A DNA stretch of 20,807 nucleotides from a virus: positions 1-20,807 of the IMG/VR virus record IMGVR_UViG_3300020468_001741. One strand, given 5' to 3'. Under the pieces are notes generated by a model. The model was not told the origin of the DNA, did not search any database, and was given only the letters and a program-made list of their open reading frames with translations. The first letter of the stretch is position 1. Each line of letters begins with the position of its first letter. This document shows, in pieces, positions 1 through 16,752 of this stretch. The position numbers and the translations under genes are program-made.

Positions 1-510
1 GAATTTACATTTACAAGATTTTTTGTTCCTTATCTTAATGACTTCAAAGGCTGGGCAGTGTTTTGTGATTGTGATTTCCTTTGGAAAATACCAAGCCACG
101 AACTAGTCAAATGGTGTGACCCATCCAAAGCTGTTGTATGTGTTCAACATGATTATACACCAAAAGAAACAACTAAAATGGATGGACAAACACAAACTGT
201 ATATCCAAGAAAAAATTGGTCTAGCATGGTGATTTGGAATTGTGAACATCCAAAAAATAAAATACTTACTCCAGAACTTTTAAACAAAGAAGAAGCTAAA
301 TTCCTACATAGATTTAGCTGGTTAGATGATAATGAAATTGGTGAACTACCTATTGAATATAATTGGCTAGTAGGTTGGTATAAAGAACCAAACGATGGTG
401 CTCCTAAAATATTACATTACACAGAAGGTGGGCCCTGGTTTGACGGATACCGAGATTGTGAATACGGCGACGATTGGAAAAAAGAATTAATAAATCTTTT
501 TAGTTCATAA
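1..510 (+). CDS. Glycosyltransferase, GT8-like GT-A fold (5'-truncated)
   Basis: The frame is open from base 1 without a convincing start, so the gene begins upstream of the window; the GTG at 58 lies inside a conserved block and is not the start. The visible 169 residues open with an FTRFFVPYL segment, then GWAVFCDCDFLW, where DCD fits the metal- and nucleotide-sugar-binding DxD motif of a GT-A transferase. Downstream are VYPRKNWSSMVIWNCEHP, WLDDNEIGELP and HYTEGGPWF, blocks I associate with a family of GT8-like sugar transferases annotated in bacteria and marine phages. The likely role is moving a sugar from a nucleotide sugar onto a surface glycan. It ends in TAA, whose last A is the first base of the next gene's ATG, so the two are probably translationally coupled. 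The donor sugar cannot be told from sequence. Confidence 0.8.
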   Translation, partial: EFTFTRFFVPYLNDFKGWAVFCDCDFLWKIPSHELVKWCDPSKAVVCVQHDYTPKETTKMDGQTQTVYPRKNWSSMVIWNCEHPKNKILTPELLNKEEAKFLHRFSWLDDNEIGELPIEYNWLVGWYKEPNDGAPKILHYTEGGPWFDGYRDCEYGDDWKKELINLFSS

Positions 511-941
511 TGAATTGGGAAAAGTTAAAAAAAGAACACTATTTCAGAGAACCTGTTGAACATATTGTTAGTACAACTATTTTTCCTATAAAAGAATATG
601 ACACTCTATACGAAAATCAAAATAATTTTACTCACACAACATGGCAAGAATTTGATGCAAAATATAGAACTGGGTTTGAACTTAAAGACGATATTACTGA
701 AATAGATTTTAAAAAAGAAATAATTGCTTTATGGTTTTTTAGAGAACGTTCAGACAACAACTCACAACCTGATATAAATGTTGCTGGCAAAAAAATTAGG
801 TATCATCAAAATAAGTTTTTACTTACTCCTTGTAAAGATATTACAATAGAAGAACAGAAAAGAAAATACATAAGACGGCCTTGTATTCAATTGGATATAT
901 CAAAAGTAAAGTACGAACAAATAATTGAGAGATTAAAATGA
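510..941 (+). CDS. Conserved-looking small protein of unknown function (143 aa)
   Basis: I do not recognise a characterised domain. The protein is charged and soluble-looking, with no signal peptide or membrane segment. Notable blocks are ALWFFRERSD (about residues 72-81), which reads like a structured core, and KRKYIRRPCIQLDI near the C-terminus. Its ATG overlaps the stop of the upstream glycosyltransferase by one base, and its own TGA overlaps the next gene's start as ATGA, placing it between a sugar transferase and a probable 2OG-Fe(II) oxygenase in one transcription unit. That context suggests an accessory role in the same glycan or modification pathway, for example as a partner of the oxygenase, but this is inference only. 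Confidence 0.7.
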   Translation: MNWEKLKKEHYFREPVEHIVSTTIFPIKEYDTLYENQNNFTHTTWQEFDAKYRTGFELKDDITEIDFKKEIIALWFFRERSDNNSQPDINVAGKKIRYHQNKFLLTPCKDITIEEQKRKYIRRPCIQLDISKVKYEQIIERLK

Positions 942-1549
942 TCGTTGGTGAAAGATTTTTACAAAAATGTTTAAACACAGATGTGCTACATGACCCGTGG
1001 CCCTATCAAATAATTGAAGATACATTTAGCTTAGATGTATTTGAAAAGTTAAAAAATCAATGCGAACAACAACTTGAAATAAAAACAGATAAGTTGATAC
1101 ATATTCACCCCAGCCAATTCAAAGAATACAATATTGATTTTTATGACGAAACTGTGGATATTTGTAGTAAGTTATTTGATAACGTAAAACAGTTACACGA
1201 AGTATATCCTGAATATAGAAAATATCCAACACTAGGTATTAATGCACACATTAGTATTACTCCGCCTCTGCCATACAAATTTTATATACACCAAGAAGGA
1301 CTTGAAAAAACTTGGAGTTCAGTGACTTATATTACTCCAGAAATAAATGTTGGCACAAAAATGTATACTGCACAAAACGAAGACGCATTTGTAAAAGAAG
1401 CAGAATGGAAGCCAAATTCAACATTTATATTTTGTGGACAACAAAATAAAACTTGGCATTCTTATGAGAGTAACCAAAATACTAATAGAATAACTTTTAA
1501 CTTATTCATTATGAAGCATAGAAGTAAGAAGTGCTTTTATCCTCTATAA
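938..1549 (+). CDS. Probable 2-oxoglutarate/Fe(II)-dependent oxygenase (prolyl-hydroxylase-like)
   Basis: The 203-aa protein fits the double-stranded beta-helix oxygenase pattern. A proximal His is at about 118 in FYIHQEGLEKTWSSVTYI, a distal His at 174 in NKTWHSYES, and a basic residue (R184 in NRITFNLF) sits where the 2-oxoglutarate carboxylate is usually bound. The proximal motif reads HxE (H118, E120) instead of the common HxD, so the iron-ligand set is slightly unusual. Family members hydroxylate proteins, sugars or small metabolites; the substrate here is unknown. The ATG is coupled to the preceding gene by a 4-nt ATGA overlap. The last 41 nt overlap the 3' end of the convergent minus-strand glycosyltransferase, and an inverted repeat spans this junction. 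Confidence 0.7.
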   Translation: MIVGERFLQKCLNTDVLHDPWPYQIIEDTFSLDVFEKLKNQCEQQLEIKTDKLIHIHPSQFKEYNIDFYDETVDICSKLFDNVKQLHEVYPEYRKYPTLGINAHISITPPLPYKFYIHQEGLEKTWSSVTYITPEINVGTKMYTAQNEDAFVKEAEWKPNSTFIFCGQQNKTWHSYESNQNTNRITFNLFIMKHRSKKCFYPL

Positions 1550-15140: not shown

Positions 15141-15143
15141 ACA

Positions 15144-16019
15144 ATGAAGGTAGAAATTTGGCCGCAGTATGGTCCGTTGAATTCAAAAGAAGTATTTCAA
15201 AACTTTATCACAAGTCTACAAAACAGTGGTGAACAACTGTCTATAAACAAAAGTTCTGACGCAGATGTGGCTGTAATATGGTCAGTGTTATGGCAAGGCC
15301 GTATGAAAAATTACAAACGCATTTGGGATCATTATAGAAATTTAGGCAAGCCTATAGTTGTTTTAGAAGTTGGTGGATTAAGACGTAACAAAAGTTTTAA
15401 GATTGGCATAAATGGTGTCAATGGAAAAGCAGATTTTGCTAACCAGGATGTTGATAATACTAGATGGCCGTTGTTCAATCACAATATTAAACCATGGCGC
15501 ACTGACGGAAAACATATTATAATACTTGGTCAACATCATACTTCAGAACAATGGGCAGGACTTCCTGCTATGAACAAATGGTTTGAACAACAGATACAAC
15601 AAATCAGAGAACACACTGATCGCCATATACAAGTTCGTCCACACCCAAGGAATCCAATTGGCTTTGATGCTAAAAAATACCATAATGTTTCAATACAAAA
15701 TCCAAAAATGGATCGCAACACAGTTGATGATACAGACTTTAAAGACATACTACATGACGCTTGGGCAGTTGTGAACCATAGTTCAAATCCTGCTATGGAA
15801 GCTGTCATACACGGAGTGCCTGTGTTTGTGTCAAAAGATAGTTTGTGTTATGAAGTTGGTAATCAATCGTTTGCAAACATTAATAATCCGTTAATGCCTG
15901 ATAGACAAAACTGGGCTAATAAGTTATCATATACAGAATGGTTTCCAGAGGAAATTAAGCAAGGAACGCCATGGAAGCGAATAAAAAAACGTTTAGAGGA
16001 AAAATATTTAAATGATTAG
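15144..16019 (+). CDS. GT-B-type, KpsC/KpsS-like glycosyltransferase (paralogue D)
   Basis: The 291-aa protein begins MKVEIWPQYGPLNSKEVF; the first residues MKVEI are shared with paralogue C. The core has HIIILGQHHTSEQWAG, a helix reading IQQIREHTDRHIQVRPHPRN (the TDR..VRPHP block) and VNHSSNPAMEAVIHGVPVFV (donor-loop region). The C-terminal signature is KLSYTEWFPEEIKQGTPW. GT-B polysaccharide transferase function is likely. It is preceded by the second GT-A copy and overlaps the next gene by 8 nt. The pairing GT-A twin plus GT-B paralogue recurs at 8549/10407 with gmd between, hinting at duplication of a small module. Confidence 0.72.
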   Translation: MKVEIWPQYGPLNSKEVFQNFITSLQNSGEQLSINKSSDADVAVIWSVLWQGRMKNYKRIWDHYRNLGKPIVVLEVGGLRRNKSFKIGINGVNGKADFANQDVDNTRWPLFNHNIKPWRTDGKHIIILGQHHTSEQWAGLPAMNKWFEQQIQQIREHTDRHIQVRPHPRNPIGFDAKKYHNVSIQNPKMDRNTVDDTDFKDILHDAWAVVNHSSNPAMEAVIHGVPVFVSKDSLCYEVGNQSFANINNPLMPDRQNWANKLSYTEWFPEEIKQGTPWKRIKKRLEEKYLND

Positions 16020-16752
16020 AGGTGAAAAAATAGAAACAATTGAATGGAAACAGTATGATGGAGAAACTGTAAACACCAATCTAATTATTCGAAATGGACA
16101 AAAAATACAAGAGACAGATTACTATAAAGACAGAGTCAAAGCAGTGCCTCGGGGTAATGCTTATATTATTGGTAATGGTCCATCACGAAAGAATTTTGAC
16201 CTAACTACTTTATCAGCAACAGGACAAACATATGGATGCAACGCATTGTATAGAGATTTCATTCCAGATTTTATTTTCAGTATAGATACAAAAATTACTG
16301 TTGAAATGTGCGAGAACGGAGTTGGCAAAAAAACAATTCATTATGCACCTTCACTTGAAGTTAATAGACCTTACAGTAAAAATATGCTACATTTGATTCC
16401 TTATAATCCGCATTGGATATCTGGTAATCAAGCCATGTGGACAGCTTGTGTGCATGGACATAAAAACATTTACTTAATAGGTTTTGACTTTAGGGAATAT
16501 GGCAAAAATCAACTTAACAACATTTACCAAGACACTGAAAATTACGGACCTAGACAAAACGATTCAATATTCGACGGATGGTTAAAACAGTTTAGGGATC
16601 ATATTAAGATGCGTCCATACTGTAATTTTACTGTTGTGCATGATAGCCCACCGGATTATTTGAATCATTTACAGACTGGAACAGATTTAGCTAACACTAA
16701 ATTAATGAATTACAAAGAATTTAACGATGAAGTTGTAAACCCACAGACTTAA
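16012..16752 (+). CDS. GNGPS-motif Rossmann protein, sialyltransferase/DUF115-like
   Basis: The 246-aa protein contains AYIIGNGPSRKNFDL (about 50-64) followed by YGCNALYRDFIPDFIFSID. A glycine-rich GxGPS loop with a following CN pair is seen in GT42 sialyltransferases (CstII type) and in DUF115/MptE-like Rossmann proteins. Further on are WISGNQAMWTACVHGHKNIY and LIGFDFREYG, a second strand-loop that fits the same fold. In this cluster a glycosyltransferase role is plausible, perhaps with a CMP-sugar donor, but the assignment to either family is not certain. The start overlaps paralogue D by 8 nt. The 3' end overlaps the convergent SprT-like gene by 32 nt, with a small hairpin at the junction. 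Confidence 0.6.
   Translation: MIRGEKIETIEWKQYDGETVNTNLIIRNGQKIQETDYYKDRVKAVPRGNAYIIGNGPSRKNFDLTTLSATGQTYGCNALYRDFIPDFIFSIDTKITVEMCENGVGKKTIHYAPSLEVNRPYSKNMLHLIPYNPHWISGNQAMWTACVHGHKNIYLIGFDFREYGKNQLNNIYQDTENYGPRQNDSIFDGWLKQFRDHIKMRPYCNFTVVHDSPPDYLNHLQTGTDLANTKLMNYKEFNDEVVNPQT

Follow-up and report, generated by a model that had tools for sequence, protein, structure and literature searches.

A marine T4-like phage glycan island with a constant glycosyltransferase core and interchangeable decoration genes

The window analysed here is the 20,807-bp IMG/VR virus record IMGVR_UViG_3300020468_001741, part of the genome of a T4-like marine phage, in which 26 genes were read. Genes g01 to g21 (positions 1-16,752) form an island of glycosyltransferases, nucleotide-sugar enzymes and decorating enzymes, and are followed by a SprT-like gene (g22), g23, a UvsW-type helicase gene (g24), g25 and g26 (Table 1). 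Comparison with relatives supports the view that the island is one co-inherited phage unit, made of a constant core and interchangeable decoration, which together probably build an acidic glycan resembling 3-deoxy-D-manno-oct-2-ulosonic acid (Kdo), carried by either the infected cell or the virus particle. New here are the fixed multi-transferase core, kept at one backbone site around a swappable middle, and the predicted transferases of cytidine monophosphate (CMP)-sugars, diverged from known ones, that belong to it. The initial annotation, made without database searches, had already described a phage-borne unit for the synthesis and decoration of a glycan; that observation is confirmed, and the interpretation attached to it is partly supported, the role in glycan synthesis and decoration being among the supported parts.

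A constant core and a variable middle

Seven gene families (g01, g09, g13/g19, g15, g16, g20 and g21) are present in 14/14 islands spanning the interval from g01 to SprT. Nine of these islands are distinct, five of the G010 group being near-duplicates of one another, as are L100 and L101. Where a locus extends 3 kb or more to the left of SprT, which is so in 62 (47 non-redundant), genes g20, g21 and g13/g19 were always found; g16 was found in all the 56 loci with 5.5 kb (43 non-redundant). The order of the core genes is nearly constant among relatives, beyond what chance would give, the exception being g16, which is inverted in G003. The idea of a single pathway, advanced from the window alone, is thus reinforced by related T4-like marine phages, in which the core recurs in the same order and the decoration varies.

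Island span ranges from about 7 to 18 kb across relatives. Among the accessory genes, g11 and g18 were found in 9 of the 14 islands each, g05 in 8, g10 in 7, g02 in 6, FkbM-type genes (g07/g08) in 5, g04 and g12 in 4, g03 in 3, g14 and g17 in 2; the g06 sulfotransferase is found in the window alone. The GT61 gene g11 ranks as near-core, and is missing only from the five near-identical G010-group islands. Relatives host in turn genes without a counterpart in the window: in G002 those for a C-methyltransferase, a radical-SAM enzyme and one more nucleotide-sugar dehydratase, an NTP-transferase and a phosphorylase in G001, a cytidylyltransferase in G003, and, in further islands, another type of sulfotransferase, a DegT aminotransferase, another 2-oxoglutarate (2OG) oxygenase and SufB.

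It is improbable that the site is a hotspot gathering unrelated carbohydrate morons rather than one pathway. The variable middle would suit a hotspot, and so would the content of the site in two relatives, G019, which hosts there small open reading frames (ORFs) without homologues in the window, and the 275-kb G018, which hosts a single gene, its product being a HldE-like nucleotidyltransferase that ends in a mannose-6-phosphate-isomerase-like part (scores below the NCBIfam cut-offs). The presence of seven families in 14/14 islands, in nearly constant order, argues against this, as does the finding that two FkbM genes and members of the g13, g01, g15 and g09 families are also together in the SAR11 phage Mosig. 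A g20 profile search gave matches in G017 and G028, and none in G018, G019, G022 and G016.

The closest viral loci used numbered at least 80 (UvsW 80-100%). The first comparison included 112 loci, and the second 111 sources, in which longer records were substituted for L020, L105, L046, L087, L031, L103 and L096. Presence was counted on 75 loci with g22, 14 of which extend from g01, or from the haloacid dehalogenase (HAD)-like gene preceding the island, to SprT; the window and some other loci begin within g01. Reading of G003 went as far as base 60,000 of 60,409, and that of G010 as far as base 40,000 of 47,692. ORFs were called mechanically (at least 75 amino acids, overlap filter) and have unverified starts; the filter missed the g01 homologue of Synechococcus phage S-SCSM2R, recovered in an all-frame search. 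The motifs GNGPS, PFN/PFD, SGNH and DxD, and the labels ThyX and HAD, were assigned by eye or follow common usage.

Genomic setting of the island

The phage origin is substantiated by the IMG/VR virus record itself and by the relative G001, where genes for the Gp23 capsid protein, terminase, portal, sheath, tail tube, a UvsX-like recombinase, the single-stranded DNA-binding protein (SSB) and UvsW all lie on one contig. These T4-like myovirus markers are found on G001; the window's own share of them is UvsW alone. The window UvsW shares 54% identity with its counterpart in Sinorhizobium phage Phosso, about 51% with those of PA5oct-type phages, and 60% and 59% with those of two relatives in IMG/VR, 275 and 237 kb long. 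The longest contigs of the family that were read, G001 (86.9 kb) and G020 (87.9 kb), have a common backbone. Its order in G001 is UvsX-like/SSB, HAD-like gene (by eye), island, SprT, g23, UvsW, g25 and g26, and the site of the island, between UvsX/SSB/HAD and SprT-g23-UvsW, is fixed in the relatives.

Four core paralogues of the KpsC/WbbB superfamily

Products of g09, g15, g16 and g20 belong to one superfamily (hhalign probabilities 99.6-99.8%). For the AlphaFold2 models, made of g20 and g21, the family alignments comprised 33 and 30 close relatives. The g20 model (mean predicted local distance difference test, pLDDT, 94.1) has the fold of retaining beta-Kdo transferases (GT99/GT107/GT140): the Foldseek matches ranking 1 to 22 are all KpsC, WbbB or KrkA (E 1e-7 to 7e-6, template modelling score, TM, 0.43-0.53), and VIA aligned 230 residues to KpsC-N at 3.8 A with a Z score of 14.2, the best other fold reaching 10.4. 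Sequence-profile searches of g20, g16 and g13/g19 against PDB gave nothing meaningful.

According to the excerpts available of the papers cited here and below, (K/R)XHP is a CMP-binding motif conserved in sialyltransferases and retaining Kdo transferases (PMC12887879), and QXXXD is the nucleophile motif of the latter (PMC10148158, PMC12887879). RXHP is found in 41/41 proteins of the g20 family and in 37/37 of the g16 family. Residues Q130, S134, R165, H167, P168, S213 and S214 are invariant in the g20 family (alignment A2), which has therefore QXXXS, with serine at the place of the nucleophile aspartate. Invariant residues of the g16 family (alignment A4) are Q163, D166, N167, R197, H199 and P200; the motif reads here Q163-X-X-D166-N167, and the aspartate is found at +3, not at +4. 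In the g09 and g15 families an RXHP string occurs in 2/29 and 5/41 proteins, respectively; in the window g15 the string is off the expected place, and neither window protein has an aligned QXXXD. CMP-sugar use by g20 and g16 is well supported as a prediction, fold and RXHP pointing to the donor. The two have not been filed among known retaining Kdo transferases, because the defining QXXXD was looked for and not found.

QXXXD and RXHP are present together in homologues from G017, from a spring podovirus genome and from one bacterial contig. The podovirus (MW202713, ct7QV12; L117) encodes its KpsC-type protein at 4792-5613, near a g13-type protein. The bacterial gene (G265, contig C6; L269 8750-9601) resides on a 1.2-Mb contig near sulfotransferase-like genes (by eye); the canonical form of the protein exists thus in a bacterium, and this gene is a possible cellular counterpart of g20. 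It is one of the g20-family matches that, apart from the metagenome-assembled genome (MAG) including a phage contig, were found in 2/397 further genomes of the phylum; the second, in G385, was not reproduced on the ORF list and was set aside. The diverged form devoid of the nucleophile looks viral. In the MAG MED657, two contigs other than that carrying UvsW host a g20-like gene in which two TGA codons are in frame (G070 C1:14010-14867 and C21:18201-19058), possibly the gene of a recoded phage.

A GT42/Maf-like enzyme

The predicted model of g21 (pLDDT 85.7) has the fold of GT42 sialyltransferases and Maf proteins. Foldseek matched it to Campylobacter CstII (E 2.8e-5, TM 0.43), and VIA to Magnetospirillum Maf (Z 11.5), CstI (10.6) and HPPK of M. 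jannaschii (9.8). At the sequence level the N-terminal stretch alone matches GT42/Maf proteins (E about 0.001). The first two Z scores tie, and g21 has therefore been assigned to neither subfamily. G001 (68520-69149) and G020 (83459-84085) each encode a g21 paralogue (31-34%) between the portal and the capsid gene; isolate phages matching the G001 paralogue are the SAR11 myophages HTVC008M and Mosig only.

Donor supply

Genes for Kdo synthesis or activation are found in a few relatives. A KdsB-like gene lies within the island of G003 (NF003952 196.7 bits, cut-off 193; below the NF003948 and TIGR00466 equivalog cut-offs). In G017, 2-3 kb past UvsW, there are a KdsA gene (NF003543 319, cut-off 242) and a KdsB-like gene, of which a part was scanned and scored below cut-off. 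KdsB and KdsA genes are found less than 3 kb from the g01 homologue in the isolate S-SCSM2R. CTP_transf_3 genes being present in few records, the activated sugar would have to be supplied in most of them, window included, by the host or by genes in an unread part of the genome. Besides the two kdsB-like genes, CTP_transf_3 is found in proteins of about 430-440 amino acids in the 16392 region of G007, the 14515 region of G062 and the 13229 region of G065 (L242-L244). They include a RraA-like aldolase domain where checked (L244), and might make and activate an ulosonic acid in one polypeptide. Each precedes a further protein, which in L244 matches MptE-like.

A possible pathway and its acceptor

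No multi-pass protein was predicted in the islands. None of 689 ORFs left of SprT in the 75 loci has two or more predicted membrane segments, and 20 have one; prediction was by Kyte-Doolittle alone, which gave 6 segments for wzy and 9 for wzx of E. coli O16 used as control. The set includes at most 29 ORFs per locus, some past the HAD border where the marker peptide differs. The multi-pass flippase, polymerase or exporter of a Wzx/Wzy O-antigen locus or of an ABC-exported capsule locus was thus not found, which makes an autonomous polysaccharide of either type unlikely. Since the island lacks flippase, polymerase and ligase, the chain would be completed in the cytosol on a pre-existing acceptor.

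The explanation that we favour, tentatively, is a cytosolic phage pathway making an acidic glycan from Kdo or other CMP-ulosonic acids, placed on an envelope glycolipid of the host and excluding competing phages. Donor, assignment of genes to steps, acceptor and role are all proposals. The seven constant families would lay down the backbone by soluble enzymes in the host cytosol, g20 and g16 (KpsC/WbbB-like) and g21 (GT42/Maf-like) taking CMP-sugars supplied by the host or, in few relatives, by phage KdsA/KdsB. Outer sugars may be varied by GDP-mannose dehydratase, epimerase, GT61 transferase, sulfotransferase, FkbM methyltransferases, amidotransferase and 2OG oxygenase. The chain would be finished in the cytosol on an acceptor already present, plausibly a nascent glycolipid (lipopolysaccharide, LPS, core or capsule-type lipid) exported by the host machinery, and the altered surface of the infected cell might shut out competing phages. 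An envelope glycolipid is preferred because precursors and enzyme folds are of the LPS/capsule type, and because a change of the host surface has been proposed for such phage clusters (PMC7029224, PMC7824862, PMC9123017).

Several observations weigh against this explanation. In none of the four window paralogues is QXXXD found at the aligned position, and g09 and g15 lack RXHP as well; donor and chemistry may therefore differ. The fold matches of g20 (Foldseek TM 0.43-0.53) and of g21 (about 0.43) are moderate, and among the five models of g21 two have pLDDT near 60. CTP_transf_3 genes were found in only 5/49 records, two of them kdsB-like (G003 and G017), and the window is not among the five. 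In the order to which a Candidatus Pelagibacter MAG belongs, the g20 family is absent from 146/147 genomes, and the single match is the phage contig itself; if the host is a SAR11 bacterium, g20 is therefore not a copied host LPS gene. The envelope as acceptor is conjectural, and conservation of the core is stricter than expected for an optional superinfection module, fitting equally a role in the virion.

A virion protein is indeed a close second to the envelope glycolipid as acceptor. The same pathway may act on capsid, tail tube or fibre, giving the phage a self-made variable glycan, a possibility somewhat less probable than that of the envelope. The lack of predicted multi-pass proteins and of export genes in the island, and a core as constant as a backbone function, would suit it. 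The g21 model is equally close to Maf and CstI, and Maf acts on flagellin. Glycan-type genes are also found near head genes: besides the g21 paralogues between portal and capsid genes of G001 and G020, genes for g10-like and g07-like proteins directly adjoin the capsid gene of G020. Self-made virion glycans are known in chloroviruses. Glycans of mycobacteriophage capsids and tail tubes are mentioned in PMC12619734. On the other side, relatives host precursor genes of the LPS/capsule type (KdsA, KdsB, HldE-like), and the glycan-type genes near head genes may be random insertions. Sequence alone cannot decide between the two acceptors. A more elaborate form, rather doubtful, is that of a KpsC/WbbB-derived phage machine whose four paralogues are a new glycosyltransferase family, two of them keeping CMP binding without the Asp nucleophile, and which together with the Maf-like enzyme would coat virion proteins with a Kdo-type glycan, its serotype-like cap being swapped between phages.

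Glycosylation of the phage DNA, as an anti-restriction hypermodification, is unlikely. The many glycosyltransferases and the 2OG oxygenase-like g03, located beside replication genes in a T4-like phage, recall a DNA-hypermodification cluster of the type reportedly described by Pyle in 2024. The models of g20 and g21 resemble rather CMP-sugar enzymes, and the C5-methyltransferase family PF00145 is found in 0/49 records, mostly fragments, in a search that did not include TET/JBP. The thymidylate-synthase family was found in G017 and G018 only (2/49); Asn or Asp in the motif PFN/PFD separates types of these enzymes, and both proteins feature PFN, as ordinary thymidylate synthases do.

Relation to known phage glycan clusters

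The initial annotation had regarded so long a pathway as unusual in a phage; precedents exist. P-SSM2 carries a cluster of 15 LPS/polysaccharide genes, and polymorphic clusters of sporadic occurrence are reported in jumbo cyanophages (PMC7824862). Like the island, these are long, combine several glycosyltransferase families with nucleotide-sugar enzymes, and are polymorphic between relatives; they differ, as far as published descriptions allow a comparison, because the core of the island is constant at one site and includes KpsC-like and GT42/Maf-like enzymes. Pelagimyophages (SAR11 myophages) feature glycosyltransferase-rich variable regions and a host recognition cluster (PMC7029224), which resembles the island in being found in marine T4-like phages, and in hosting glycosyltransferases; the cluster includes rfaE. 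A complete marine genome with T4-like structural genes carries Gmd, WcaG, ManC, NeuA, KdsA and WaaG (PMC5332604), and by this description is similar to the island family in origin and in nucleotide-sugar and KdsA genes. Moraphages have four core glycosyltransferase groups (PMC12619734), and kdsA and kdsB are among the viral genes of surface waters (PMC10653327).

Among isolates, a likeness was noted in Mosig EXVC030M, where two FkbM genes are followed by g13-, g01- and g15-type genes, an annotated sulfotransferase gene and a g09-type gene. This module is smaller than the island and adjoins ribonucleotide reductase and RuvC genes. A search of the frames in the 27.8 kb read gave no orthologue of g16 or g20, only cross-matches of g15/g09-type proteins, and a partial g21 match is located elsewhere in the genome. 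HTVC008M has two g21-type genes. The isolate S-SCSM2R (PQ898602, 244 kb) has a g01 homologue, 2OG oxygenases and many annotated glycosyltransferases, in addition to KdsB and KdsA; unlike the island, it gave no match to the g09, g15, g16, g20 and g21 profiles when all frames of a 32-kb stretch were searched.

With the retaining Kdo transferases KpsC, WbbB and KrkA (GT107, GT99 and GT140, respectively), g20 and g16 share the model fold, RXHP and the glutamine of QXXXD. They differ in having an invariant serine (g20) or a shifted Asp-Asn (g16) for the nucleophile, in being about 290-330 amino acids long, and in being found mainly in viruses. In the excerpts returned by a literature search there was no description of KpsC-type enzymes in phages, the nucleophile-less KpsC-fold ones included, which is not proof of absence, nor of a multi-transferase core that stays fixed at a single backbone site around an exchangeable middle.

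In marine phages, regions rich in glycosyltransferase genes have been hard to assign because of their seemingly optional content; the present comparison separates a constant core from changeable decoration, and CMP-ulosonic acids are proposed as donor class. KpsC-fold enzymes lacking the nucleophile may represent a new mechanism among glycosyltransferases. A partial module is available in a cultured pair, Mosig EXVC030M on Pelagibacter ubique HTCC1062; part of the pathway is thus testable, and virion coat versus serotype conversion of the host becomes a question for mass spectrometry.

Other genes of the window

Gene order and most assignments made from the sequence alone hold in Pfam, PHROG and NCBIfam scans (Table 1), among them the two nucleotide-sugar enzymes, the sulfotransferase, the two FkbM methyltransferases and the amidotransferase, all matched in Pfam. 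About nine glycosyltransferases had been counted; eight (g01, g04, g09, g11, g15, g16, g20 and g21) have database, profile or model-fold support, and three more (g12, g13 and g19) are called from DxD-type motifs seen by eye. The g01 protein is 51% identical to a putative glycosyltransferase of Mosig and 48% to a glycosyltransferase of S-SCSM2R; g13 has no Pfam match over cut-off and no PDB match. The supposed SGNH enzyme, g10, is DUF6071 in Pfam, its motifs suggesting the SGNH assignment. The 2OG oxygenase-like g03 was missed by Pfam and PHROG; its family profile matches, in S-SCSM2R, two proteins annotated as 2OG oxygenases (E 9e-17 and 2e-14). The best NCBIfam match of g05, LegB, scores 131.5 bits, far below the cut-off of 475, and g05 has therefore been assigned no substrate. 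The g14 score against TIGR01472 is 384.8, under the cut-off of 415, and g18 matches 7ylz and 1ct9 in PDB. Conserved proteins of unassigned function are encoded past UvsW by g25 and g26.

Table 1. Genes of the window, their class in the island, coordinates and supporting matches
Gene	Assignment	Class	Coordinates	Strand	Support
g01	GT-A-type glycosyltransferase, cut by left end	core	1..510	+	phrog_28018 E 2e-51 (no function there)
g02	no assignment	accessory	510..941	+	no Pfam or PHROG match
g03	2OG-Fe(II) oxygenase-like	accessory	938..1549	+	family profile; no Pfam or PHROG match
g04	glycosyltransferase	accessory	1509..2261	-	phrog_14945 'glycosyltransferase' E 6e-25
g05	NAD-dependent nucleotide-sugar epimerase/dehydratase	accessory	2240..3244	-	PF01370 158.6 bits
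g06	sulfotransferase (Sulfotransfer_2)	accessory	3253..3852	-	PF03567 43.5 bits
g07	FkbM-type methyltransferase	accessory	3842..4468	-	PF05050 61.7 bits
g08	FkbM-type methyltransferase	accessory	4449..5159	-	PF05050 47.9 bits
g09	KpsC/WbbB-superfamily paralogue	core	5159..5971	-	hhalign to g20 99.8%; blastp to g15 E 2e-28; no RXHP or QXXXD
g10	DUF6071; possible SGNH-type esterase/acyltransferase (motif)	accessory	5946..6653	-	PF19547 38.2 bits
g11	GT61 glycosyltransferase	near-core	6668..7750	+	PF04577 84.4 bits
g12	possible GT-A glycosyltransferase	accessory	7747..8508	-	motif; phrog_28746 E 7e-12 (no function there)
g13	putative glycosyltransferase, DxD motif	core (as g13/g19)	8525..9430	+	52.5% to paralogue g19
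g14	GDP-mannose 4,6-dehydratase	accessory	9437..10420	+	PF16363 374.5 bits; PDB 1rpn 378.6 bits
g15	KpsC/WbbB-superfamily paralogue	core	10407..11222	+	hhalign to g20 99.6%; no aligned RXHP or QXXXD
g16	KpsC/WbbB-superfamily glycosyltransferase	core	11212..12192	+	hhalign to g20 99.7%; RXHP kept, QXXDN replaces QXXXD
g17	FdxA-type ferredoxin, between g16 and g18	rare	12192..12515	+	NF045490 154.9 bits (cut-off 135)
g18	glutamine-dependent Asn-synthase-type amidotransferase	accessory	12515..14251	+	TIGR01536 299 bits (cut-off 267); GATase_7 and Asn_synthase
g19	g13 paralogue	core (as g13/g19)	14262..15140	+	62/62 loci as g13/g19
g20	KpsC/WbbB-fold CMP-sugar transferase-like (predicted)	core	15144..16019	+	AlphaFold2 model; RXHP kept
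g21	GT42/Maf-fold CMP-sugar transferase-like (predicted)	core	16012..16752	+	AlphaFold2 model
g22	SprT-like	right border	16721..17194	-	PF10263 30.1 bits
g23	phage protein adjoining UvsW	context	17249..18580	+	no Pfam match; syntenic in relatives
g24	UvsW-type helicase	context	18577..20049	+	phrog_16 'DNA helicase' 258.8 bits; Pfam helicase domains over cut-off

The FdxA-type ferredoxin g17 had escaped the initial annotation, as had the division into fixed core and variable middle and the CMP-sugar-transferase folds. A ferredoxin gene is found between g16 and g18 in three islands, those of the window, L142 and L147 (G020 35910-36233). Its being a fixed part of the island was considered and rejected: among 80 ferredoxin loci listed, only L142 and L147 show this arrangement. 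In L174 the ferredoxin gene is near other glycosyltransferase-like genes. Related ferredoxins are common elsewhere on viral contigs among the matches listed, as beside a ThyX-like gene (by eye) in G010. The ferredoxin-bearing G020 hosts within its glycan island a gene for a SufB-type iron-sulphur assembly protein (42746-44179; L231:2749-4179).

Hosts were also sought in MAG bins, and the attempt was abandoned: five UvsW-bearing contigs were binned with Verrucomicrobia, Rickettsiales, Euryarchaeota, Pelagibacter and Chitinophagaceae, and because of this disagreement no host has been assigned. The T4-type late promoter TATAAATA is found 0 times in the window, against 3.2 expected, and is unenriched also in five relatives; no argument on the timing of expression is therefore drawn from it. 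Genes for TctA, of the tripartite tricarboxylate transporter (211-252 bits), are present in this phage family in G002 (4482-5813 and 8513-9922) and G020 (10426-11751), and point to a possible phage-borne uptake of carboxylates.

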